Below, piece after piece: positions 28,677 through 45,013 of a stretch of 64,000 nt of DNA. The DNA is taken from contig NZ_CP041767.1 in the NCBI RefSeq assembly GCF_022026395.1, positions 2,264,501-2,328,500 of the forward strand, in the 5' to 3' direction. A program made the translations under genes and the position numbers. The DNA comes from Brevibacillus brevis (GTDB lineage: Bacteria > Bacillota > Bacilli > Brevibacillales > Brevibacillaceae). The notes below the pieces were generated by a model. It was not told where the DNA came from. It did no database searches and was given only the letters and a program-made list of their open reading frames with translations. How positions within the stretch are numbered: position 1 is the first letter of the stretch; every line of letters starts with the position of its first letter.

Positions 28677-29360
28677 ATGATTATGGGGATGTCTTTTGGA
28701 CGCGGTGTGCTTTTTCATGATCGAAATGTGCTGGCTTGCGCGGAAGTAAAAGACGGCGTGATTCACATGTGGGCGGAAAAAATCACATTGAAAACGATAG
28801 GGAAGCTCTGGTATCGAATCTTCTTCTCCTTTCCTTGGTACTATCAATTGTTTCACTTCCTTCTTGCTGGTTATGTACTGGCGGCGATCATAAAGCCTGA
28901 CTGGGTCATCATCGATCCAATGTGGGTAGCTGTATACATCGCAGGCTTTCACTTCGTTTTTCCGAAAATGATGAAAAAATTTCACGGTGCAGAACATAAA
29001 GTGTTTAGCTATGGAGGGAAGAAATCGTTAGCAGCACTGAAAGAGATTCAACGGGCAAATATCGTGAATGACGGTTGCTCGACGAATCTGGTCGTGTGGT
29101 TTTTTACGGGGTTCATTTTGTCTGTATTCTTCTTACCCTTGGAATGGAGCGTCGCATGCGGGGGAGCAGGACTGCTTGTTGGTATGCTTGGGGATCGCTA
29201 CGTGCGTAAATATTTCGGTTTTCTTTACAAGCTGTCGGCTTTCTTTCAAAAATACAGCACGACCAAAGAACCGGATCGGATTCATTTAGAGACAGCGATT
29301 CGCTCGTATATGCTATTTGAGCACATTCGCGAGGTGGATCGATTGCAGAATGCTTCGTAA
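28677..29360 (+). CDS. DUF1385 membrane protein (YqhQ-like)
   Basis: A 227-residue protein with the DUF1385 hallmark KFHGAEHKVFSYG. It has at least four hydrophobic helices (for example LFHFLLAGYVLAAIIKP and FFTGFILSVFFLPLEW). The HGAEHK motif looks like a metal or nucleotide site, but its function is unknown. ATG 28677 has GGAG upstream at a rather long spacing. A terminator follows. Confidence 0.82.
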   Translation: MIMGMSFGRGVLFHDRNVLACAEVKDGVIHMWAEKITLKTIGKLWYRIFFSFPWYYQLFHFLLAGYVLAAIIKPDWVIIDPMWVAVYIAGFHFVFPKMMKKFHGAEHKVFSYGGKKSLAALKEIQRANIVNDGCSTNLVVWFFTGFILSVFFLPLEWSVACGGAGLLVGMLGDRYVRKYFGFLYKLSAFFQKYSTTKEPDRIHLETAIRSYMLFEHIREVDRLQNAS

Positions 29361-29402: not shown

Positions 29403-29605
29403 TTATATGTATCTTGTGGTTGTTGGTTTTCAACTACAAGAAGATGAGAGTTGCACTTCGTTAAGATGCAATTAATTATGGGGATAGAGAGTTCGATTAT
29501 ATTCAAACCACTAATCCAGTATGGTTCAAAAGTATTGTGTTCCTACGTTATCTGTGAAGTCAAAAAAGAACGTGTCGGAGTGTACAAATCACTACGGAAA
29601 TTTTG

Positions 29606-29622
29606 TATAATAATACTATTAT
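29606..29622 (+). promoter_or_regulatory. -10 box with overlapping small palindrome before the Roco gene
   Basis: TATAAT at 29606-29611 overlaps ATAATACTATTAT (29610-29622), a perfect 13-bp palindrome. No clear -35 was found. The position just before the ribosome site suits a repressor-controlled promoter, but this is an inference. Confidence 0.45.
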
Positions 29623-29645
29623 CGGAATTCGGAGGTAAATTATAA

Positions 29646-32441
29646 ATGCAAAACAAAAAAAGCAGTATTAATGATGACGAAGAAAGATTTGAAAATAATT
29701 TTGATATAGAAAATTTCGAAGATTATTATGAGGAATATGACGAATATGACGAAGATGACGAAGATGACGAGAATTACGAAGTAGATGACTTTGATATAGT
29801 TCAAAATATACATTCAATTTTGCCATATGAGCGTCATTATAGCACTTTAACCACTAGTCAAGTGATAGATTTAATAAATGAAGCAAAAGAAAAAAGGTGG
29901 AAAGTACTAGATCTTTCTGAATGTGGTCTAAGAGAGCTACCAACAGCGATTGGAATGCTTACAGATCTAGAAATTTTAGATTTGGGAAATCATGGAATGT
30001 TGGATGGGAAAATAAAATCTTCAATAAATATATTTACAACTTTACCACCTGAGTTTGGAAAATTAGTGAATCTCAAGATTCTAAGTCTATATGGTACCAA
30101 AATTAAGTTTCTACCAAAAGAATTTTCAAATCTTAATAATTTGGCTACGATAAACTTAAATGGTGCTGACTTCGAAGAATTTCCAGAAGAATTATGTCAA
30201 TTGAAGAACTTATGTAACATAGCTATAAATGATTCTTTTACTTACTTACCAGAGAGTATTAGTGATTTGAAGAACTTAGAAAGACTGTACATGCCAGGCG
30301 CTCAAATTACAACCCTTCCTGAGTCAATTGGAGAACTTACCCAACTAAAAGAACTATATTTGGCAAGAAGTAAATTATCATACATTCCATCATCGCTTGC
30401 AAAATTAAAAAACCTTATTAAATTTGAACTTGGAGACTCAATTATTACGAAAAATATCCCCCCTGAAATTTTTACTCAGACTCCTAGTCAAATTATTGAC
30501 TACATACTGCATTATCAAAAAGATGAAGCCAAAATAATTTTAAATGAGTCCAAAATGATCATAGTTGGACAAGGGGGAGTTGGTAAAACCTGTTTATTGA
30601 ATAGAATAATAAACGATAAATTTGTGGAAGGGGCTTCAACAGAAGGAATTGATATTGCTCAATGGTGTTTTGAGTCTGAAGGAAAAGAAATTCGACTCAA
30701 TACTTGGGATTTCGGTGGTCAAGAGATCTACCATTCCACACATCAATTTTTTCTAACAAAGAGATCACTTTATATTTTTGTCTGGGATGCTCGACAAGAA
30801 GAAGAATATGGTCGTATTGATTATTGGCTGAATACGATACAGTCTTTTGCAAACGACAGTCCAATTATCATAGTAATAAATAAATGCGATGAAACAAGAA
30901 AAAATATTAAAATGATTGACATTACTAATTTGTGTACAAGGTTTCCCCAAATAGTTGATTGTTTTTATGTGAGCTGTCTTGATAACACTAATATTGACAT
31001 TTTGAGGGAGCAAATTATTAACGAGGCTAAGAAACTGCCACTGATGGAAACTATGTGGTTTTCATCTTGGGTGAATGTTAGACTTGAATTGGAAGGATTA
31101 TCAAAATCTAAAAATATTATCGACTATCAGGCGTATATTGAAATTTGTTCGGAACATTCTATAGAAAGAGATGAAGCAGATAGCTTAATAAAATATCTTC
31201 ACGATTTAGGCGTGGTTCTACATTTTCATGAGGATAATATTCTTAAAAATATAATTATTCTTAGTCCAGATTGGGGTACCGATGCAGTATATAAAATATT
31301 AGACGCCCAGACGAATATTTTGAAAGATCGTAATGGACTATTGTATTACAAAGATCTCCCGAAGATATGGAACGACAGGAGTAAATATCCTGAGAATACT
31401 TATCCGTACATACTTAAACTTATGGAGAATTTTCAGTTATCGTTCGTTGTTGAAAATACAAACACATATTTGGTGGCAGAACTATTAGATAATACAGAAA
31501 AGAATACTGAGTTAATTTTTCAAAAAGAAACCACTTTGAATTTTAGGTACGATTATAATTTTCTGCCAGCAGGAATAATGACTCGTTTTATTGTAAAGGC
31601 ACATACATATTTAATTGATGTAAATGGTGTTAAAATGTGCTGGAGGAAAGGAGCATACCTTCAGTATAAAGATGCATATTGCTTAGTCGTGTTAAGAGAT
31701 GGAATTACAGAAAGGTATGTAGATATCAAGGTAAGCGGTAAAAATCAAAGGAATCGTCGAGAACTTTTAGCTATTGTGAGAAGCACTTTTGAGCAAATAC
31801 ATTTAAGCATACCAAAGATAACATTTACCGAAAAAGTTATGTGTAATTGTAGTACAAACTGCAACTACCTTCACGATTTTCAATATTTAATAAAACTAGA
31901 GTCAAACGGAATATTAGAAGAGAGATGTAAAGATTCCTTAAATTTAGTACAAATTATCATGTTACTTGACGGGATACATATTAAGCATGAAAGGAAGTTT
32001 GGAATGACAGAAATTAATATTAGTCCAATATTTAATAACTCACCTATAATAAATACAAGTTCCAGCGCTTCAAATATTAACAATATAACAATAGAAGTTA
32101 AAAATACGATAAATGAGTTACAAGGTTTCGTTAATGAATTAAAAGATGAATTAAAAGAAATTGACCCAAACTGCGCTCAAGAGTTAAATAAAATTGACTC
32201 AAGCATACAAAAGCTTGATCAGGCACAAACAAAAGAAGACATCGTTAAATCTGGAGCATTAAATAAAATAAAAAGATTTTTTGAGGAAATTAGCGATTCA
32301 GAATCTTCAACAGGAAAAATAATAAGTGGTGTCAAAAATGGTTACTCAATACTACAAGATATAGCAGAAAAATACAATTCCATAGCAGAGTGGTGTGGCA
32401 GTCCGGTCATTCCAAAGGTCTTTTTAAAAACTAAAAAATGA
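29646..32441 (+). CDS. Roco protein: acidic head, leucine-rich repeats, Roc GTPase, COR, helical tail
   Basis: A 931-residue cytoplasmic protein. Residues 9-52 are very acidic. Leucine-rich repeats cover about 85-285 (LTDLEILDLG, LVNLKILSLYGTKI, LTQLKELYLA). The Roc GTPase follows with P-loop VGQGGVGKTCLL (about 305-316), switch-II DFGGQE (about 354-359) and NKCD (about 411). The COR region spans about 445-760. The last 150 residues are helical, ending YNSIAEWCGSPVIPKVF. All nucleotide-binding motifs are intact, so the GTPase should work. Base composition is far more AT-rich than its neighbours, which suggests acquisition. Its role in bacteria is unknown. ATG 29646 has CGGAGGT upstream. Confidence 0.9.
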   Translation: MQNKKSSINDDEERFENNFDIENFEDYYEEYDEYDEDDEDDENYEVDDFDIVQNIHSILPYERHYSTLTTSQVIDLINEAKEKRWKVLDLSECGLRELPTAIGMLTDLEILDLGNHGMLDGKIKSSINIFTTLPPEFGKLVNLKILSLYGTKIKFLPKEFSNLNNLATINLNGADFEEFPEELCQLKNLCNIAINDSFTYLPESISDLKNLERLYMPGAQITTLPESIGELTQLKELYLARSKLSYIPSSLAKLKNLIKFELGDSIITKNIPPEIFTQTPSQIIDYILHYQKDEAKIILNESKMIIVGQGGVGKTCLLNRIINDKFVEGASTEGIDIAQWCFESEGKEIRLNTWDFGGQEIYHSTHQFFLTKRSLYIFVWDARQEEEYGRIDYWLNTIQSFANDSPIIIVINKCDETRKNIKMIDITNLCTRFPQIVDCFYVSCLDNTNIDILREQIINEAKKLPLMETMWFSSWVNVRLELEGLSKSKNIIDYQAYIEICSEHSIERDEADSLIKYLHDLGVVLHFHEDNILKNIIILSPDWGTDAVYKILDAQTNILKDRNGLLYYKDLPKIWNDRSKYPENTYPYILKLMENFQLSFVVENTNTYLVAELLDNTEKNTELIFQKETTLNFRYDYNFLPAGIMTRFIVKAHTYLIDVNGVKMCWRKGAYLQYKDAYCLVVLRDGITERYVDIKVSGKNQRNRRELLAIVRSTFEQIHLSIPKITFTEKVMCNCSTNCNYLHDFQYLIKLESNGILEERCKDSLNLVQIIMLLDGIHIKHERKFGMTEINISPIFNNSPIINTSSSASNINNITIEVKNTINELQGFVNELKDELKEIDPNCAQELNKIDSSIQKLDQAQTKEDIVKSGALNKIKRFFEEISDSESSTGKIISGVKNGYSILQDIAEKYNSIAEWCGSPVIPKVFLKTKK

Positions 32442-32574
32442 TTGTTACATTATCCATTGGGGTGTTTCCCACTAAAGTATATTAGACGATTTTTGAGAGT
32501 AATAGAGTTTGTCAACTATAGTTAAGTGTTTTATTAACTGGGATGGAGAACGAGATGAGGAGAGCTGAGTCGAG

Positions 32575-32775
32575 ATGAGAAACGAACAGGATGAAATTTT
32601 GGCAATGGGACCGATCTTGGATGTCGGGGCAAGAGCGTCCTCCTTTACAGCTGAGGCATGTCAACAGGGACGAGAAGCAATCGTAGTCGATCTGCTTTAT
32701 CAAATGATTTTTACGAAGGGGAAGGTAGAGATCGAGGAGGGCGCTAAGCATTATTCGGAGATTCGCAAATCTTAG
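32575..32775 (+). pseudogene. Truncated SAM-dependent methyltransferase remnant
   Basis: A 66-residue reading frame with GPILDVGARASSFTAEA, a motif-I-like start of a class I methyltransferase, followed by VVDLLYQ. It then breaks off into a short tail and meets a terminator. The full fold needs over 180 residues, so this is a remnant, perhaps cut when the adjacent Roco islet entered. The ribosome site (GAGGAGAGC) and ATG at 32575 are intact, so a small product may still be made. Confidence 0.55.
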
Positions 32776-32779
32776 AAAC

Positions 32780-32824
32780 AGGGAGGATAGAAGGTGCATA
32801 TGCGCCCTCGACCTCCCTTTTTTC
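32780..32824 (+). terminator. Intrinsic terminator
   Basis: AGGGAGG (about 32780-32786) pairs with CCTCCCT (about 32812-32818) and runs into six T. Confidence 0.8.
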
Positions 32825-32830
32825 ATTTTC

Positions 32831-33364
32831 CTACTCCCGTTCGAGCGGGCTTTCTTCCAGTTGGCGATACATCTTGCCTTTATCCACATATGATTGGCGA
32901 ATGCGCACGAATTCTTTTAAGTCTTCCTCGTTGAGTTCACGTTTTACTTTTGCTGGGTTGCCAACAACAAGCGAGCGAGGTGGCACCTTCATGCCTGGAG
33001 GAACGAGTGCACCCGCAGCAACCATCGCTTCTTCTCCGATTTCCGCACGATCCAGCACGATCGCGCCCATTCCAATCAATGCGCCGCGACGTACCACGCA
33101 GCTATGTAAAACAGCGTTATGTCCTACAGTCACCTCGTCTTCAAGGATCAACGGGTTGTTTGGGCTTTGATGCAGGGTGCTGTTGTCTTGGACACTGACG
33201 CGTTTTCCAATGACGGTCGGAGCGATGTCCCCGCGGATGACGGTGTTGTACCAAATAGAAGAATCCTCGCCAATTTCGACATCGCCAGAAACGACGGAGC
33301 CTTTTGCAAGAAAAACCGTAGGGTGAATCTTCGGTTGGATGTTTTCAAATGATAAGAGCAGCAT
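32831..33364 (-). CDS. Gamma-carbonic-anhydrase-like hexapeptide-repeat protein (YtoA type)
   Basis: A 177-residue left-handed beta-helix protein with repeated hexapeptides (VFLAKGSVVSGDVEIGEDSS; YNTVIRGDIAPTVIG). Metal-binding histidines fit NSTLHQSPNNP and TVGHNAVLHSCVV, as in CamH/YrdA-type proteins. It ends with a helix that packs on the trimer. Carbonic anhydrase activity is not guaranteed for this group. ATG 33364 has TAGGAGGT upstream. Confidence 0.88.
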   Translation of the reverse strand: MLLLSFENIQPKIHPTVFLAKGSVVSGDVEIGEDSSIWYNTVIRGDIAPTVIGKRVSVQDNSTLHQSPNNPLILEDEVTVGHNAVLHSCVVRRGALIGMGAIVLDRAEIGEEAMVAAGALVPPGMKVPPRSLVVGNPAKVKRELNEEDLKEFVRIRQSYVDKGKMYRQLEESPLERE

Positions 33365-33796: not shown

Positions 33797-34203
33797 GCAG
33801 GAAATGTGGGTAGTCGCTGCCGCAATCGTTTCGATGATTGGCGGTAGAGGAAAGTCCAGGCTCGCCCAGGCTGAGATGCCTGGAGTGTTCGTACCTGGTG
33901 CAAGCCAGGGCAGTGAGGTGCTGAGCCTTGCTGACGGCGTGGAAAGGGCTCTCTCTGAGGCCCGAGTACGCTGAAAGTGCCACAGAAACGTAGCTTTTCT
34001 GGCGACAGAAAAGATGGAACGCGGTAAACCCTGCGAGCGAGAAACCCAAATTAGGTAGGGGAACCGTCCTGAAGGAATCAAACGGAAAGGACGGATGGTA
34101 TCTTCGGATGCCATAGATAGATGGCTACCGCTCTTGGTGCGAGGGATTGCCCCGCTTGAAGCACGGGAGAGACAGAACCTGGCTTATAGCATTTCCTGCT
34201 GGA
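33797..34203 (+). ncRNA. rnpB: RNase P RNA, type B
   Basis: The catalytic RNA of RNase P, which removes 5' leaders from tRNA precursors. Conserved blocks are GAGGAAAGTCCAGGCTCGCC near 33846, GAAAGTGCCACAGAAACG near 33972, GGAACGCGGTAAACCC near 34016, the GAGAAACCCAAATT segment near 34040, and ACAGAACCTGGCTTATAG near 34173. The ends pair as GCAGGAAATG (33797-33806) with CATTTCCTGC (34190-34199), forming P1. The layout follows Bacillus subtilis (type B). Ends are approximate. A strong terminator follows. Confidence 0.95.
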
Positions 34204-38584: not shown

Positions 38585-39070
38585 ATGCAAAGCACAGAAC
38601 TTTCCAAGCAGCGGATCATACAGCTTTACATACAGCTAGTCACGCAGCAAGAGCTGCGAGAAAGCAAATTGACTGCCCGAATGGCAGAAGAGATGCAGAA
38701 GCTGGAAGCCGAGATGGGGATGAAGCTAAACCTTACCCTATCGGAAATTCATTTCATTGCCTGTATCGGGGATCATGGTCCCATAAATGTCACGACGATT
38801 TCGGAAAAAGTCAATTTAACGAAAGGGTCCATAACACGGATCAGCAAAAAGTTATGGAAGCTTGATTTAATTAAAAGGCAACAGCTGGTTGATAATAAGA
38901 AGGAAGTGTACTATCGGCTAACCGCAAAGGGACAAAAGCTGTATAAGATTCATCACCAGTTGCATCAGGACATTGAACAGCGATTTAAGAGCTTTCTGGA
39001 TAAATACACACCGGAGCAATTAGCATTTTCCCGGGAACTGCTGGAGGATTTGCTGGATTGGGATTTCTAA
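38585..39070 (+). CDS. MarR family transcriptional regulator
   Basis: A 161-residue winged-helix regulator. The recognition region reads NVTTISEKVNLTKGSITRIS, and the wing KRQQLVDNKKEVYYRLTAKG is typical of MarR proteins. Flanking helices at both ends form the dimer interface. It probably represses itself and the upstream monooxygenase through the shared 18-bp sites and is released by an aromatic ligand. ATG 38585 has AGGAGA upstream. A strong terminator follows. Confidence 0.88.
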   Translation: MQSTELSKQRIIQLYIQLVTQQELRESKLTARMAEEMQKLEAEMGMKLNLTLSEIHFIACIGDHGPINVTTISEKVNLTKGSITRISKKLWKLDLIKRQQLVDNKKEVYYRLTAKGQKLYKIHHQLHQDIEQRFKSFLDKYTPEQLAFSRELLEDLLDWDF

Positions 39071-39138
39071 GTACGGAAACAAAGGGGCGCCATCACACTG
39101 ATGGTGTCCTATGTCTGTGAACAGTACTCTCGATAAGT

Positions 39139-39176
39139 AAAAAGCCGGATTACCCCACGGTAATCCGGCTTTTTTG
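39139..39176 (+). terminator. Intrinsic terminator
   Basis: AAAGCCGGATTACC pairs with GGTAATCCGGCTTT around CCAC, followed by a T-run. Confidence 0.92.
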
Positions 39177-39309
39177 CTTATTTAATCTTAGGGTTGAATT
39201 TTGCATTTCTCATAGGAAACCGCTCTTAGTTAGGTATACGTCTGTCTTTCCACTCGTCAACTTCTCTTGGATCGATGTCGAGAACTTCGCAAATATGTAT
39301 CGCAATCAA

Positions 39310-39346
39310 GGGCGTTCCACCCCTTGGCCAGGTTAAAGGAACGCCC
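39310..39346. other. Unexplained stem-loop
   Basis: GGGCGTTCC (39310-39318) and GGAACGCCC (39338-39346) form a perfect 9-bp stem with a 19-base loop, upstream of the Spo0E-like gene. No T-run follows in either direction. The surrounding stretch 39177-39404 holds no gene I can support. Confidence 0.5.
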
Positions 39347-39433
39347 GCAGGAGGAGCAGATACAGCTCCTATAAGTAAATGTACCACGCTAGCGTTAGAT
39401 CAGGAAGGAGGAACTTATCACGATGTAGATCAT

Positions 39434-39580
39434 TTGAAAAACATTGTGGAACAATTACGCGAGCAACTGGTGCAATTGTTTTTGGAGAAGAATGATTTGT
39501 TGGATGATGCAGTCGTGGAATTAAGTCAGCAATTGGATCAGTACATCCTGGTAATTCAATCAAAAATGATGCAAAAATAA
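39434..39580 (+). CDS. Spo0E-like aspartyl-phosphate phosphatase, start codon apparently damaged
   Basis: A short helical protein with LREQLVQLFLEKNDLLDDA and the family hallmark SQQLDQYI (S-Q-x-L-D), as in Spo0E-type phosphatases that dephosphorylate Spo0A. A strong AAGGAGG (39405-39411) is followed at 11 bases by ATG (39423), but that ATG is directly followed by TAG in its frame. One added base after this ATG would give MVDHLKNIVEQLREQ, a normal start. As it stands, translation must start at TTG 39434 or GTG 39446, far from the ribosome site. It may be a one-base frameshift mutant or a sequence error. Confidence 0.55.
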   Translation: MKNIVEQLREQLVQLFLEKNDLLDDAVVELSQQLDQYILVIQSKMMQK

Positions 39581-39691
39581 GAAAAAAGTAGATAAGGTTT
39601 TATTTGAATTAAGGTTATAGCAACTCAATTTGGAAATATATGTTATAATTCCCTTGAATTTAAAATTTCTAAAAATATACAGGAGGGTAAA

Positions 39692-40321
39692 ATGAATATT
39701 AAGAAAATTTCTTTCGCAACTCTCTTACTTAGCAGTTTAGTTGTATCTGGAGCTGGCTCTGCTTTCGCAGTATCTCAAGGTGAGACTATTAAAATAGGTA
39801 ACCTAAAAATCGTTGAACGTGTATATGAGAACCCAGTAGAGTATGATTTTACAGATGACCTTACAAAGAGTGATTCATCTAAGATTGGTCCCTTTGGCAA
39901 TGATATGACTGGCAAAGTATATGAAATGTCTAAGAAGGACCTATACAAAGCAAAATCTTATGAAGCTGATATTGAGAACGATAGTAGCGAAAACGATACC
40001 TTTTCAAGGAAGGTTACAAGAAAAACATTTCTAACCGGAAAAATAGGCGTGGAAGCCGAGACGAAAGTCAACTGGAGGATCATAGAGGGAAAAGTGGGGA
40101 TTAATGCAGAAGTCTCCTTTGGAGATGAAGACATTGTAGAAACAACCCACAGTTGGGTCATACCAAAGCGTACGATTACAACCGTTGAATACGGATCAAA
40201 AGCCGTAAAAACAACTGGAAGCTTAAACGAATATTTTCAAGGCAGAGTAGTAGATTCTAACTACGTTAACGTCAAATACTCGTACAAAGAGTATTCTAGT
40301 AAAAAATCAAAAGATCTATGA
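39692..40321 (+). CDS. Secreted protein of unknown function
   Basis: A 209-residue protein with a clear signal peptide (KKISFATLLLSSLVVSGAG, cut near AFA-VSQ). The mature part is beta-rich with no cysteine; the stretch VNWRIIEGKVGINAEVSFGD and then THSWVIPKRTITTVEYGSKA alternates polar and hydrophobic residues as in amphipathic hairpins of surface or pore-forming proteins. That similarity is only an impression. TATAAT at 39644-39649 is preceded by TGT, an extended -10; CAGGAGGG precedes the ATG. Its stop overlaps the next start (ATGA). Confidence 0.7.
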   Translation: MNIKKISFATLLLSSLVVSGAGSAFAVSQGETIKIGNLKIVERVYENPVEYDFTDDLTKSDSSKIGPFGNDMTGKVYEMSKKDLYKAKSYEADIENDSSENDTFSRKVTRKTFLTGKIGVEAETKVNWRIIEGKVGINAEVSFGDEDIVETTHSWVIPKRTITTVEYGSKAVKTTGSLNEYFQGRVVDSNYVNVKYSYKEYSSKKSKDL

Positions 40322-40839
40322 TCCGACCTCTCCATATACTTCTCCTTCTGTTCATAGTTCTTCTTAGTGGCTGTAGCGAGGCAGTAACAGTCCCTAAAGA
40401 GAAGTCATATGTAACTGTCTACGATTATTTCGAAGAAATTACAGGGGAGAATCTAAAAACATCCGTGCTTCAAATAACAAAAAACGGTAATTCGGCAGAA
40501 CTCACGTTACGAATCTTAATTTCGGACGATTTAAGAGAAAAAATGATGCATACTGAAAAACCCATTTACTTTACGTTTGCAGATATGCCAGGCAACGAGA
40601 CCATTAAAAATTTGCTTGCTGAGACTCCTTCACACGTTCAAATTGAGTTCAACAGTAAAGAGAATCGGTATACGATTTCGCAACAGCTAAAGCTAAAAGA
40701 AAATTTATCGGAAGATGATGAAAAGGCGCTATTGTCTCCTGCTAATTACCGATTTCAGGTCAGCAACGAAGAAAAGCTCTCCGTAGCTAGTTTTATGGGT
40801 TTAGAATATTCGCTACTTCCTGAAGATAATCAGAAGTAG
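40318..40839 (+). CDS. Lipoprotein of unknown function
   Basis: A 173-residue protein whose signal peptide ends with lipobox VLLSGC (Cys19). The mature domain has no recognised motif. It overlaps the stop of the secreted-protein gene by four bases, so the two are translated as a pair. An anchored partner or protective protein for the upstream exported protein would fit, but nothing in the sequence proves it. Confidence 0.7.
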   Translation: MIRPLHILLLLFIVLLSGCSEAVTVPKEKSYVTVYDYFEEITGENLKTSVLQITKNGNSAELTLRILISDDLREKMMHTEKPIYFTFADMPGNETIKNLLAETPSHVQIEFNSKENRYTISQQLKLKENLSEDDEKALLSPANYRFQVSNEEKLSVASFMGLEYSLLPEDNQK

Positions 40840-40941
40840 CAAATCGCTTGTTACGAATTGTACCTCTTGTGGCAAACGTGGCCACAGCCTACATGGTATT
40901 TTTGGGGGGGTACCGCCAACAAAATGTGACTTGGATGTAAT

Positions 40942-40983
40942 AAAAAACTCGTATTCCTGTACGCTAAGGAACACGAGTTTTTC
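40942..40983. terminator. Bidirectional intrinsic terminator
   Basis: AAAAACTCGTATTCC and GGAACACGAGTTTTT form a long stem with one mismatch. It sits inside a larger, weaker repeat GGGGTACCG / CGGTACCC. Confidence 0.8.
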
Positions 40984-42197
40984 ATATTGCCGGTACCCTT
41001 TATTTTTCGAGTCTAATACATTATTTTCAGTGAACACCTAGGCTTACTAGCAACTTCTTGTTGTATCTCTCAGCGTGTTATAACGTAAAGAGTGCGCCTA
41101 CAAAGAGGTTTAAATGATTCTCATTTTAAAGATTCGGACCACTTTAAGCCTAACTGAAATGCTGATGTGGAATAGTTTACCTAATCATGTGATCATAAAG
41201 ACATGTCAATTAAGTTGAAACGGAGTTTACAGTTTAGCGTGGTTATTTATTTGCTTGGGCGCTTGGACTATAGTGCTACAAAGTATGACAGAATCTAAAG
41301 TGGCATCAAAGTCATTGGAAAAAATAGTCATCATCAACAGAAAACGATTGTCGTTAATAACCATATTACTACTAATGGAGGGGTGACAAATGATTTGTTT
41401 CGGAAATAACAAATTCAAAACTCCTTTTACTGTCATTAGGATCTATTAACTTAGCGCCACTCTACGCCTTAACCGGCGTAGGGTGGTTCTTTTTGAGCAA
41501 AATGAACACTACCCAGTGCCGAAAAAATTGGGCGGAACGTACTGAATGAACTTAACCCTAATTATCCCCGTATGTGTTCCTTTAATATGCCTGTACGCAC
41601 AAAAATGTTTGAATTTTAACCCATTAGCGTTACATATTACAGGTTCGAACAAAGGGAGCTTTGACAATGGCAAAGATTCGGCTGAATATCATTTCAAAAA
41701 AACGGCCCATCATCGCTACAAAAAGAATGGGAAATGTATTGATATTGCCAATGACGGTACAATTGTTTTATTCGATCTGGTGAAAAGAATGGACGCGAAT
41801 TCAAAGACGATGCACGTTTGGCGAAATCTAAAATTTTGAAAGAAACCGTGCTTTTCGAATTATATTTGGCAGGCAAAGATCTCGATTGATCGAGTGGATA
41901 TTGTGACGGTAGAATATGATTTGATTGTGCAGCATTCCAAGCTGTATGGCAAAGAACAAAAATCAGTGATTTGGCAGCCATATTTGACGCTGATGGCATA
42001 GCAGCCAACTGCCATTAAATAAGTTTTGGAGGTACGATTGAATGGTTGAATTATGAAAAAAGTGTTGAATATCTAGGCGATTATGCAGAGAAATTACTCC
42101 AAGTCTTTACTGATGCAGAGAAAAATGGAAGAGGATTTAAAGTGATAGTAAAATGAAAACTGGTTTGAGTGATTTTAAGTATATAGAAAGCACCAGA
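40984..42197. other. 1.2-kb AT-rich stretch without an intact gene
   Basis: No complete gene can be supported. There are short coding-like fragments in changing frames, for example GAWTIVLQSMTESKVASKSL (about 41249-41308) and EFKDDARLAKSKILKETVLF (about 41800-41860), each soon stopped. A terminator-like hairpin CTACGCC-TTAACC-GGCGTAG lies at about 41457-41494 with a following T-run. The pattern is that of decayed mobile or toxin-locus DNA. Confidence 0.5.
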
Positions 42198-42349
42198 GTA
42201 GCCCTTCCAATGTAATTTTAAAAAAAGCTATTCATTCTTTCCAAAAAGATGTAATCGATCTTAACTAATATAACCCAACTCACTTTCAATATATTGATCC
42301 AAACACAGGGAGAACTAGATCAGACCAACATTTCTACTTTAACGATTAG
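42198..42349 (+). pseudogene. C-terminal remnant of a polymorphic toxin
   Basis: In one frame the stretch reads VILKKAIHSFQKDVIDLN, an in-frame stop, then THFQYIDPNTGRTRSDQHFY and FND before its stop at 42347-42349. Short endings of the IDPNTGK-RSxQH type are common in contact-dependent or secreted toxin tips. Its stop lies within the ribosome site of the next gene, the usual toxin-immunity layout. The toxin body is gone. Confidence 0.55.
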
Positions 42350-42358
42350 GAGAATAGC

Positions 42359-42871
42359 ATGGAACTTAACTTTATAAAATTAATTGGAATGTTAAAACAT
42401 AATGTGTCAACTGAGGAAGTTGCTCAAATTCTTAGTTTTCTAATAGAAAACGATTCCTTGCTGTTATTCTCCTTCTATGAGAGAAATCTTCATTTATTCG
42501 AGTCGGAGATTCAAGATTTCATCAATGAAAGACGTCTATTTACTAATTCCGAATGGGTATTGCCGTGGGAAGAGACAAGTCCTCACTGGGACAAACCAAA
42601 TAATACTCCACCAAATATTATTTGGTTCTCAGTAAAGACAACGGACGAGATTATAAAAGCGATAGATATCGACAGTTTGTTTCGATGTGTTGTTGTGAAG
42701 GATGGCGACGACTTTTCGAAATACTCGAATATGATATTCCAACAAGAATATTATGCAACTTTTGACGAAGAAAATTTTAAGCATTATATTGGGTTTACGA
42801 ACAAGGTTGAATTTCTTAACGCCACATGGTCAAAATTAAAGAACCGATTTCATGTAAACTTAGTTGAATAG
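42359..42871 (+). CDS. Probable immunity protein of the decayed toxin
   Basis: A 170-residue cytoplasmic protein, acidic, without signal peptide. The start ATG 42359 has TTAGGAG directly from the preceding stop. The middle WVLPWEETSPHWDKPNNTPP is distinctive; the end NKVEFLNATWSKLKNRF looks helical. I do not recognise a family. The immunity role rests on position immediately after a toxin tail. Confidence 0.6.
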   Translation: MELNFIKLIGMLKHNVSTEEVAQILSFLIENDSLLLFSFYERNLHLFESEIQDFINERRLFTNSEWVLPWEETSPHWDKPNNTPPNIIWFSVKTTDEIIKAIDIDSLFRCVVVKDGDDFSKYSNMIFQQEYYATFDEENFKHYIGFTNKVEFLNATWSKLKNRFHVNLVE

Positions 42872-43044
42872 AGTTGGAGGACCTTATTTGATAAATTCTA
42901 ACAAGGCCTCGGGTCTGTAAGGGTTTTGTGTAAACTCAATCAACCGATATTAAAAAGGTTTCATCCCCTAATTGGGACATCTTTCATGGAACCAACAAGG
43001 TGAAGGGCGTAAGGCGAAGCGAACCCTTGACACGTTGGTGTAGA

Positions 43045-43088
43045 GAAAGACAATCCCTTAGGGGTTGAAGCCTTTCTTTATTTTTTAA
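43045..43088 (+). terminator. Terminator-like hairpin
   Basis: AGAAAG..AATCCC pairs with GGGGTT..CTTTCTTT around TTAG and runs into TTATTTTTT. Confidence 0.6.
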
Positions 43089-43213
43089 CGGATGTGTGGA
43101 TGTAGGAGATCCTAGAATCATTGATGCCATTGAACCAAGCATAGCAATAAAGCCGGTTACACCCTTAGCGTGGTGAAAACAAAATGTTTTTGCTTTCTGA
43201 ATCGCTTAGGTTA

Positions 43214-43333
43214 ATAACGGATGAACATCCTTTCTGGATTGTTGGAAAATATTGTTGGAAAAGAGTGGCTCAAAGCTAAAGACCTTCTAGCGGAGACGTA
43301 TTGATTACTTTGGATGATAAGAAACTAGTGTAA
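43214..43333 (+). pseudogene. PT-HINT pretoxin domain fragment, frameshifted
   Basis: The stretch encodes TDEHPFWIVGK, then in a new frame VGKEWLKAKDLLA, then in a third frame DVLITLDDKKLV. Together this is the end of a HINT (intein-like) processing domain, which precedes toxin tips in many polymorphic toxins. The first frameshift is explained by a 13-bp tandem duplication (43238-43250 and 43251-43263). The second fits loss of one G after GCG near 43292. Confidence 0.7.
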
Positions 43334-43348
43334 CTACCTTTTCTACAG

Positions 43349-43586
43349 GATCATTTCGAGAGACATGGATCAGACTTTGGTCTCAACCCCCAGTGGAATA
43401 TGCAAAATGGCAAATGACTTCTTTAAAAATAGAAGTAATTCTCAGGTTAAGGTTGATTGCGAGGGAAAGATTAGAGAGTATGACCAAAATACCAACATTT
43501 TTGGTTCCTATAATTCTCGTGGTTATACTAGAACCTTCTTTAAACCTACATCACCTACTTATTGGAGTAGGCAACCAGGGAGATGA
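43349..43586 (+). pseudogene. Toxin tip remnant with HFERHGSDFG motif, frameshifted
   Basis: Frame one gives DHFERHGSDFGLN, frame two PVEYAK, frame three MANDFFKNRSNSQVKVDC, then GKIREYDQNTNIFGSYNSRG and RTFFKPTSPTYW to the stop. This HFxxHGxDF..EYxxxAxxFF..FG....TxFKP pattern is that of a family of secreted nuclease tips, likely of the BECR ribonuclease fold (fold name is an inference). At least two frameshifts make it inactive. Its stop overlaps the next gene. Confidence 0.65.
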
Positions 43587-43594
43587 TGATCAAT

Positions 43595-43849
43595 ATGAAC
43601 AGGTGCTTTGTTTGCAATTATAATGAACTTTTGGAGGCCCCATACAATGAAAGGGGAATACCTTCAGACGAAATATGCCCGTGTTGTGGGATTCACTATG
43701 GTTATGATGACGATGATGTACCTGATAAAGAGGCGGTTTACAAAAAATGGAGAGATAATTGGGTTAGCAATGGATGCGTTTGGTTTTCAAAAGGGAGACG
43801 CCCTCCTGTAGGTTGGAATTCAATCGAACAATTAAACAGAAGTAAATAA
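43595..43849 (+). CDS. CPCC cysteine-rich protein, probable immunity protein
   Basis: An 84-residue protein beginning MNRCFVCNYNELLEAP, with a CxxC pair and the CPCCGIHYGYDDDD motif that names the Cys_rich_CPCC family, then KKWRDNWVSNGCVWFSKGR. These four cysteines probably bind zinc. Genes of this type are often placed directly after toxin tips. Alternative ATGs at 43583 and 43586 overlap the toxin stop; 43595 was chosen for spacing from AGGGAG. The gene appears intact although its toxin is broken. Confidence 0.78.
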   Translation: MNRCFVCNYNELLEAPYNERGIPSDEICPCCGIHYGYDDDDVPDKEAVYKKWRDNWVSNGCVWFSKGRRPPVGWNSIEQLNRSK

Positions 43850-44381
43850 ATCATATCTAGGGCAGCACCATTTGTTGAAATATCTACTTAGAGGCACAGC
43901 CTTCTTGATTAGCCAACTCACATCAATTAAACTAATCCGCTAGATATGCTCAAGTTCAACGAGTTAAATTTTCTTCCAACTATTTGTCTATTAACAGGAA
44001 GAAAAACTCATTTAAAGTACGGCTCTTGAACCTCATTGCACACCAAGTGTGCGCCTCTTTATCTGAGGAGAGAGGACGGTGTCAGCTTAATCGTAACACT
44101 ATTTGAAAGCTTGGTTGTATCGCGGAATGGTAGAATCTTTGTGTCGTCAGATAATAGGATTAACTGGGTACCTTCTTTACTTCAACAACGCCTCTCTAAA
44201 CTAATCCGAAAAGGTAACTTTTCGGATTAGTTGGTTATTACTTCTAAAGATCCATGGTATTGGGGCCAGGCCGTCGTACAGCATACAAGGATAGCGGGAT
44301 GATTCATTGTGTTACACAACAACCTTGATTCAAGATAATGGTTTCATCTGAACGGGTAGGATAGAGAAATACCGGCAGGAC
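43850..44381. other. 530-bp stretch with no supported gene
   Basis: No reading frame with a ribosome site or family pattern was found. The only marked structure is the long stem-loop at 44199-44232. Confidence 0.5.
44199..44232. other. Perfect 15-bp stem-loop
   Basis: AACTAATCCGAAAAG (44199-44213) and CTTTTCGGATTAGTT (44218-44232) with loop GTAA. It may be a terminator, but the T-run after it is poor. A single half (AAACTAATCCG) also occurs near 43928. Confidence 0.6.
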
Positions 44382-44972
44382 CTATCCCAGCAGTTCTTTG
44401 GCTCCGTTCATCACTAAGGGCATTGTCTGTTTAACGAATGATTCCGCACTAATTAGACGCCCCTCATTGTTCCAAACGTAAGCCGCCCCATACATCCCCC
44501 AACTTAACATGATAGAAGCTGTATTTATTAAGAATTGCGCGTTTGGACTCGATAGCATCTTGTCTTCGTCTATAAAGGAAAGAAGAATCGTTTGAATTTT
44601 TTCCTTTATTTGAATTTCGAATACAGGTCCAAGCGATTCATACCTTCTTTTACACATAGTGCTTAGACCCTTGTGAAAATCGCATACACCCAGAAAAATA
44701 CTCTGAATTGTTTCTTCATTTAATACTTCATGACCGCTTATTCTACGATTTATGATAGTCATAAATGATTCCATTAGTTTGGCCTCAAGAATTTCGAACT
44801 TATCTACAAAGTGCGCATAAAAAGTCGTTCTGTTAACAGTAGCCCGCTCTGCAATATCCCTAACGGTTATCGATTCAAAATCTTTCTCTTGAATTAGTGA
44901 ATCGAAAGCGTCTTGAAGGAGTCGCCGTGTACGTACCACACGAGGATCAGCTTCATTCTTTTTCATTGTCAT
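44382..44972 (-). CDS. TetR family transcriptional regulator
   Basis: A 196-residue repressor-type protein. The helix-turn-helix reads SITVRDIAERATVNRTTFYAH, with the preceding RTRRLLQDAFDSLI typical of TetR regulators. The C-terminal part would bind ligand and dimerise (TetR_C type of the YxaF/DhaS group is possible). Start 44972 has GGGGGAGAT upstream; the in-frame extension to 45026 lacks a ribosome site. It is divergent from the nitroreductase, and the space between is dense in GTTG/CAAC repeats, so it probably controls both genes. Confidence 0.87.
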   Translation of the reverse strand: MTMKKNEADPRVVRTRRLLQDAFDSLIQEKDFESITVRDIAERATVNRTTFYAHFVDKFEILEAKLMESFMTIINRRISGHEVLNEETIQSIFLGVCDFHKGLSTMCKRRYESLGPVFEIQIKEKIQTILLSFIDEDKMLSSPNAQFLINTASIMLSWGMYGAAYVWNNEGRLISAESFVKQTMPLVMNGAKELLG

Positions 44973-45013
44973 GGTTAGGATCTCCCCCATAAAAACGACA
45001 TTATAGAGATGGT

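Follow-up and report, generated by a model that had tools for sequence, protein, structure and literature searches.

A horizontally acquired LRR-Roc-COR protein of the CtRoco type in Brevibacillus brevis, a candidate single-gene receptor against invading DNA

A stretch of 64,000 nucleotides from Brevibacillus brevis (contig NZ_CP041767.1 of assembly GCF_022026395.1, positions 2,264,501 to 2,328,500; hereafter the window) carries a gene for a Roco protein, in which leucine-rich repeats (LRR) precede a Roc GTPase domain and a COR region. The protein is read here as an intracellular LRR-Roc-COR receptor of the type of the Chlorobium tepidum Roco protein (CtRoco), acquired horizontally as a single gene and most likely directed against phages or other mobile DNA, a reading whose probability is put slightly above one half (about 0.55). 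It draws on intact domains, purifying selection, a patchy distribution, the exchange of immune-type tails among relatives, defence genes in the neighbourhood of some of them and the presence of the same tail on proteins of mobile elements. The gene and its parts, in window coordinates, are as follows.

29646..32441, + strand: Roco gene, 931 amino acids, a single open reading frame without inner stop
29631..29636, + strand: GGAGGT, resembling a ribosome-binding site, 5′ of the start codon (sequence reading)
29646..29825, + strand: acidic head, residues 1-60, mostly predicted disordered (25 of 60 residues D or E; predicted local confidence, pLDDT, <50 at residues 1-48)
29898..30470, + strand: LRRs, about residues 85-275, the likely sensor (Pfam LRR families; regular strand/helix pattern in the model)
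30552..30890, + strand: Roc GTPase domain, residues 303-415 (Pfam; GQGGVGKT at 308, DFGGQE at 355, NKCD at 412)
31065..31487, + strand: COR-A, residues 474-614 (Pfam)
31530..31973, + strand: COR-B, residues 629-776 (Pfam)
31974..32438, + strand: C-terminal module, residues 777-931, a flexible linker and a predicted helical bundle from about residue 816 (homology to CtRoco 952-1104; also on the proteins of L184 and L185, see below)

Pfam recognizes LRR_14 (9.1e-23), Roc (8.5e-31), COR-A (2.7e-39) and COR-B (4.2e-29), all above cut-off, and Roc is directly followed by COR-A and COR-B, the arrangement that defines the Roco family. The G1, G3 and G4 motifs (GQGGVGKT, DFGGQE and NKCD) are intact. 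The initial annotation, made from the sequence alone, thus described the protein correctly as an intact LRR-Roc-COR protein with an acidic head, while its alternative of a ‘STAND- or GTPase-type’ protein is retained for the second term only: Roc scores 107 bits, and NB-ARC reaches 16.9 bits (cut-off 23.5) over residues 303-346 only. Judged by these profiles, the protein is a Roc-type GTPase and not a STAND protein. Against PADLOC-DB 2.0.0 a single match appears up to an E value of 1 (PtuA, 19 bits, residues 284-326 around the P-loop), and no catalogued system is matched. Ahead of the gene, from 29300 to the start codon, the promoter scan reports no forward site. In the full-length AlphaFold model (mean pLDDT 80.7) the LRR, Roc and COR parts are visible, and the model superposes on the RocCORdC part of Methanosarcina Roco2 (4wnr; Z 33.1, root-mean-square deviation (rmsd) 3.6, 317 residues), the RocCOR tandem of CtRoco (3dpu; Z 32.8, rmsd 3.0, 461 residues) and LRRK2 (8vh5; Z 31.5, rmsd 7.9, 658 residues).

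The gene occupies an islet whose surroundings are conserved in the genus.

29413..32539, no strand: AT-rich islet, lacking in the other 25 genomes of the genus; edges accurate to within a few bases (flank homology with L013 stops at 29412 and restarts at 32540; G+C 31.4%)
28677..29360, + strand: DUF1385, left flank and conserved site neighbour (matched in all 26 genomes of the genus, the own one included)
32831..33364, − strand: gamma carbonic anhydrase, right flank and conserved site neighbour (NF050158 above cut-off)
32575..32775, + strand: methyltransferase remnant, internally deleted (comparison with L041, L042 and L045)

Both the abrupt change in base composition and the housekeeping character of the neighbours (DUF1385 on the left, gamma carbonic anhydrase on the right) had been noticed from the sequence alone and are borne out. 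The Roco gene has a G+C content of 31.3%, against 45.7% for the window; across the 64 kb, all 2.8-kb intervals within half a point of the value of the gene start between 29401 and 29801, and the lowest value elsewhere is 36.6%, in intervals starting near 39.6-40.2 kb. The empty site suggested for comparison is also found. The distance between DUF1385 and the gamma carbonic anhydrase ranges from 47 to 4812 bp in the 25 congeners; it is below 150 bp in 13 of them, 313 bp in one and 674-4812 bp in the remaining 11. No congener has a Roco match (rows for G004 and G020 cover the GTPase region only, at about 3e-4), so that presence in all relatives at the same place, the outcome that would have spoken against a foreign gene, is not observed. 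Class-wide, three of 398 genomes, the own one included, match the window protein at 1e-20, and the genome of the window encodes one COR protein only. Since the site is empty or differently filled in 25/25 congeners and the composition is odd, the islet is, on sequence grounds, horizontally acquired. No tRNA gene is present in the 64-kb window, and no repeat pair that would point to the mode of entry is seen at the two edges of the islet.

The contents of the gap between DUF1385 and the carbonic anhydrase vary among congeners, and the site is therefore changeable in general. By eye, the longer gaps (L049-L055, L057, L059) hold acetyltransferases, a transporter with an aminotransferase-type regulator, and a methyltransferase, some of these genes being broken. 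L041, L042 and L045 each carry an intact methyltransferase of 237-239 amino acids at this site (Methyltransf_11 at 1.2e-6 for the L041 copy). The truncated methyltransferase proposed at the right edge is indeed present as a remnant, but a cut by the edge of the islet is not what is found: the start and last codons are kept, two inner stretches are gone, and DVGAR replaces the DVGAG of the three intact copies. Because both ends survive and inner stretches are missing, the decay lies within the gene and is not a clean cut made by the islet, which replaces some 75-100 bp upstream of the methyltransferase.

The nearest relative, encoded at locus L068 of Paenibacillus psychroresistens, is 70% identical over the length of the protein. 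Between the two genes dN is 0.21 with saturated silent sites, which points to purifying selection, as estimated from one pair spanning both lineages. Identity is highest in Roc (86%) and COR (73-76%), lower in the tail bundle (66%) and the LRRs (60%, residues 65-290) and lowest in the acidic head (45%), so that the LRR is the least conserved folded part; in this one pair, such a profile agrees with a conserved switch joined to a sensor that drifts.

The C-terminal module ties the protein to a known one. A profile of six Roco tails matches residues 952-1104 of CtRoco (8r4b) at 1.5e-11, followed among PDB entries by a designed coiled coil at 3e-4, and the window tail alone matches CtRoco at 5.1e-5, with the next match at 0.11. 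On the strength of these matches, the window tail is homologous to the C-terminal module of CtRoco and the protein belongs to the CtRoco subtype. The profile search that had been recommended is thereby answered, and the description of a helical tail outside named families holds, as no Pfam family rises above cut-off and a helical bundle is predicted. For the corresponding part of CtRoco (947-1102), structure and function have been described as unknown (PMC5714945), and the cryo-EM map has no density for the last 150 residues of that protein (PMC11052575, 2024). The most conserved part is the tail end, YNSIAEWCGSPVIPKVFL in the window protein: the six tails have 15 invariant columns, and 8 of these lie there. 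In the model of the tail a helical bundle follows a floppy linker (core pLDDT about 80-90); the full-length model (alignment A5) and the tail model (alignment A3) show the same helices. The predicted fold is a plain helical bundle with no informative structural match. A Pfam ING match to the tail (2.8e-4) lies below cut-off and is treated as helix resemblance.

Ten cyanobacterial tails (helixB) were joined to this family by an iterative search and then rejected: the six-row profile finds none of them in the genomes of five of the ten loci (one weak match lies elsewhere, in G419), and an hhalign comparison of the helixB and window-tail alignments gives a probability of 0.4%. Alignment A3 held the ten helixB rows, and alignment A5 held one, L109. 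Across 398 genomes of the phylum, the tail profile finds one copy in the genome of the window and, beyond it, two weak partial matches. In the six genomes that carry a full tail, the profile otherwise picks up only a 61-residue frame in G403 and a weak match (3e-4) in G402. The 61-residue frame (L193, G403:C103:109284-109454) reads as the terminal part of another CtRoco-type tail; it lies about 6 kb from the complete Roco gene in the ANME-2 archaeon genome of L071.

The same module also occurs outside Roco proteins. It caps a 467-residue stop-to-stop frame beside a phage integrase on a phage-like IMG/VR contig (L184:1183-2586) and a 453-residue protein encoded on the mobilizable Polaromonas plasmid pH1NP1 (L185:4933-6294; tblastn 2e-16). 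The two proteins have a common N-terminal part, which recurs in a Vibrio phage 1F53_PE003 protein (L186:1457-2833); the latter has a different end without the CtRoco-type tail. By hhalign, the L184 and L185 tails match the six Roco tails with a probability of 99.6% (E 6.7e-24). On these few cases, the CtRoco tail is a portable module that also occurs on mobile-element proteins, a link that is new relative to the passages of the papers examined.

Exchange of the C-terminal domain is widespread in the family, as is already known: at least 24 domains have been recorded at the C-terminal position of this class, which was named counter-invader systems (PMC8195603, 2021). The present set combines the window and L067 with the best 80 among 550 confirmed Roco loci, two of the 80 containing a pair of genes each; 81 tails of at least 30 residues were scanned, and L066, which encodes the same protein as L069, is left out of the tail and tree counts. 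Pfam assigns TIR_2 to 17 tails, CHAT to four, guanylate cyclase to two and EAD7 to two, with single cases of phosphorylase, calcineurin-like, FGE and other domains; in PADLOC, models of Thoeris ThsB match as well, the commonest of them with 14 members, and Pycsar PycC matches two. When ten tail classes, labelled by the analyst's own rules, are placed on a Roc-COR tree of 84 rows (LG+G4, quick search), 33 changes are counted against a mean of 56 for shuffled labels. Exchange is also visible at close range: the cores of L079 and L122 are 94.7% identical over 469 residues, but one carries a TIR tail and the other a helical tail that belongs to a different family. Among L079, L122, L098, L085, L091 and L109 many core pairs exceed 90% identity, and the tails are TIR, helical or very short, a pattern that reads as natural tail exchange between close relatives. 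Judging from the 33 changes on the tree and from near-identical cores with different tails, the COR end is an output socket.

The clade of five that contains the window protein (99% SH-aLRT) repeats this pattern, with the window-type tail in the window, L068 and L069, a membrane tail in L070 and a third kind in L067, which looks restriction-endonuclease-like by eye only and has no Pfam match; the join of L070 and L067 is flagged as one between two long branches. Tandem Roco genes were also seen, in L072:6473-13168 and L073:703-7728, and both L072 tails read as class III cyclase domains.

Defence genes stand beside three of these near relatives. The Roco gene of L068 is followed by Lamassu LmuA (1.3e-132) and LmuB (1.7e-231), that of L067 by an FRG protein (PDC-S15, 5.5e-58) and NsnA (1.7e-49), and that of L070 by a type I restriction cluster that includes HsdM and HsdR. 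The gene that precedes the Roco gene in L067 and L068 is one that we take to be rlmH; rlmH is the attachment gene of staphylococcal cassettes. On an IMG/VR contig with a lambda-type portal and a GpA terminase (L183), a Roco gene adjoins one for a 991-residue ATPase that matches Ppl at 3.2e-29, best over its last 150 residues; the two genes lie at L183:7929-13126. Lysis-type genes nearby on this contig were named by eye only.

Outside the locus, a second AT-rich stretch (36-40% G+C) extends from 39000 to 45000 of the window, where the open reading frames 39692-40321 and 40318-40839 look exported by eye and have no Pfam or PADLOC match at 0.001. A class B RNase P RNA gene lies at 33802-34191 (Rfam RF00011).

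Comparison with known systems suggests how such a protein could work. CtRoco (8r4b, 6hlu, 3dpu) shares the LRR-Roc-COR order and the same C-terminal module of about 150 residues; the window protein differs in its acidic head, its shorter LRR part and its distant host. In CtRoco, GTP opens and monomerizes the protein (PMC11052575, PMC5714945), and opening involves an LRR rotation of about 135 degrees (PMC11052575). The AP-GTPase counter-invader systems of PMC8195603 have in common with the window protein the LRR, the Roc-type GTPase, COR and a C-terminal position open to many domains. The Pfam architecture and the varied tails of the relatives agree with this combination of LRR, Roc-type GTPase, COR and a variable C-terminal domain. 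The text of PMC8195603, in the parts covered here, names GT4, TIR, DRHyd, caspase, trypsin, FGS and EADs at the C-terminus, and the window tail is not among them; it also predicted, in 2021, an immune role for bacterial LRR-GTPase-COR proteins.

STAND immune receptors, such as Avs and the NLRs of plants and animals, combine sensor repeats, a nucleotide switch and an exchangeable effector. The window protein resembles them in these three respects, whereas it carries a Ras-like Roc GTPase with COR in place of a STAND ATPase and its presumed effector at the C-terminal end. With human LRRK2 it shares the LRR-Roc-COR core (phmmer about 1e-43, residues 142-682). LRRK2 also has kinase, ARM, ANK and WD40 parts, and for these Pfam finds no match in the window protein.

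By analogy with CtRoco, the protein would rest, free of ligand, in dimeric form, its LRR folded onto Roc-COR. We infer that the LRR binds a ligand in the cytoplasm; binding would favour the GTP state, and ligand and GTP together would cause opening, monomerization and release of the C-terminal helical bundle. The freed bundle, alone or self-assembled, may then harm the cell or the invader, leading to a growth stop or to death of the infected cell, and GTP hydrolysis would reset the switch. Since the genome of the window holds a single copy of the tail, an output acting alone or with itself would be expected, rather than an adaptor with a matching partner. More tentatively, the CtRoco-type tail may be a portable immune output domain, employed also by a second family of mobile-element proteins and unleashed in Roco proteins by GTP-driven opening.

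Several observations weigh against an immune function. The window gene has housekeeping neighbours and so, by eye, does its relative in L069. Around 32 Roco loci, PADLOC matches show no clear excess over matched controls. This comparison covered, to either side of the Roco gene, the two closest called genes (124 proteins against 128, E up to 1e-20); the loci were those of the best 80 that lie on contigs >100 kb, L122 left out, and the controls were 32 regions located roughly half a contig's length from them on the same contigs. It is coarse, being made by families among the matches listed and not by protein counts: the 25 of 79 case families listed include Lamassu, type I restriction, dGTPase, PDC-S70 and PDC-M37B, and the 25 of 63 control families listed include kinase-type PD-T4-6 and others in two members, with MTase_I and NsnA in one each. 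With no clear excess, the matched test gives no support for a location next to defence genes as a feature of Roco genes in general. Links to mobile elements are few. Among 50,697 phage records the tail has no match and the whole protein has LRR-only matches in three; among 72,556 plasmid records the tail is found in one, and 80% coverage of the protein is reached at no place; two scans of viral contigs gave one relative each (L183 and L184), with the tail in 1 of 75 candidate stretches. A first scan of genome contigs with the single protein gave no match. The tail itself offers little guidance: residues 777-931 are assigned neither to a Pfam family above cut-off nor to a PADLOC model, its best Foldseek neighbour has an uninformative E value of 0.18, and hydropathy detects no membrane-spanning helix, so that a pore would need assembly from soluble helices. 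The best VIA match of the tail is a designed protein (Z 12.1, rmsd 2.2, 96 aligned residues), within the common range for helical bundles and no evidence of function. Among the literature matches listed, which do not extend to subscription journals or bioRxiv, there is no report of experimental phage defence by a bacterial Roco protein. The defence role proposed in the initial annotation is therefore upheld in part: exchanged TIR, CHAT and cyclase tails, defence genes beside three near relatives, the Roco gene on a phage contig and the prediction of PMC8195603 speak for it, and the lack of a clear excess at 32 loci speaks against it.

An alternative is an acquired signalling GTPase without immune function, for instance in stress or development, which would relay a cellular cue to a partner through its tail. 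The lack of a clear defence enrichment in the wider set, the housekeeping neighbours and a tail outside Pfam families would fit this role; the patchy distribution, the exchanged tails of kinds that act in immunity and the phage and plasmid links would not, and such a role is judged unlikely, if the most serious of the alternatives. The tail could instead be an adaptor, binding a matching tail on a separately encoded effector, like the EADs of other conflict systems. Adaptor domains that gather effectors by homotypic contacts are described in PMC8195603, and the same tail caps a different family carried by mobile elements in L184 and L185; such an arrangement requires a partner, yet the genome of the window holds one copy of the tail and the six genomes with a full tail add few further matches, which makes it a rather improbable explanation. 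A recent functionless passenger, decaying like the adjoining methyltransferase, would accord with a site where genes come and go, with fewer than 150 bp in 13 of 25 congeners and other or broken genes in the others. The full-length frame, the preserved motifs and the sequence resembling a ribosome-binding site argue against decay, as does the low dN relative to silent change against L068, a value that spans both lineages and would accommodate recent relaxation in that of the window; a passenger is accordingly given very little credence.

Overall, the window protein is a well-supported addition to a class for which an immune role has already been predicted. It is a compact Roco member with a clean empty-site comparison, and what links it to CtRoco is the same tail that is missing from the structures. 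Research uses bacterial Roco proteins as models of LRRK2, and very little is known of their role in bacteria (PMC6337361); the open questions on this role and on the CtRoco tail can now be reduced to plating and toxicity tests. Should the more tentative reading of the tail as a portable immune output domain be correct, the standard bacterial model of LRRK2 would be an anti-phage receptor acting by abortive infection, and bacterial immunity would be one early use of the GTP switch of the LRRK2 line.

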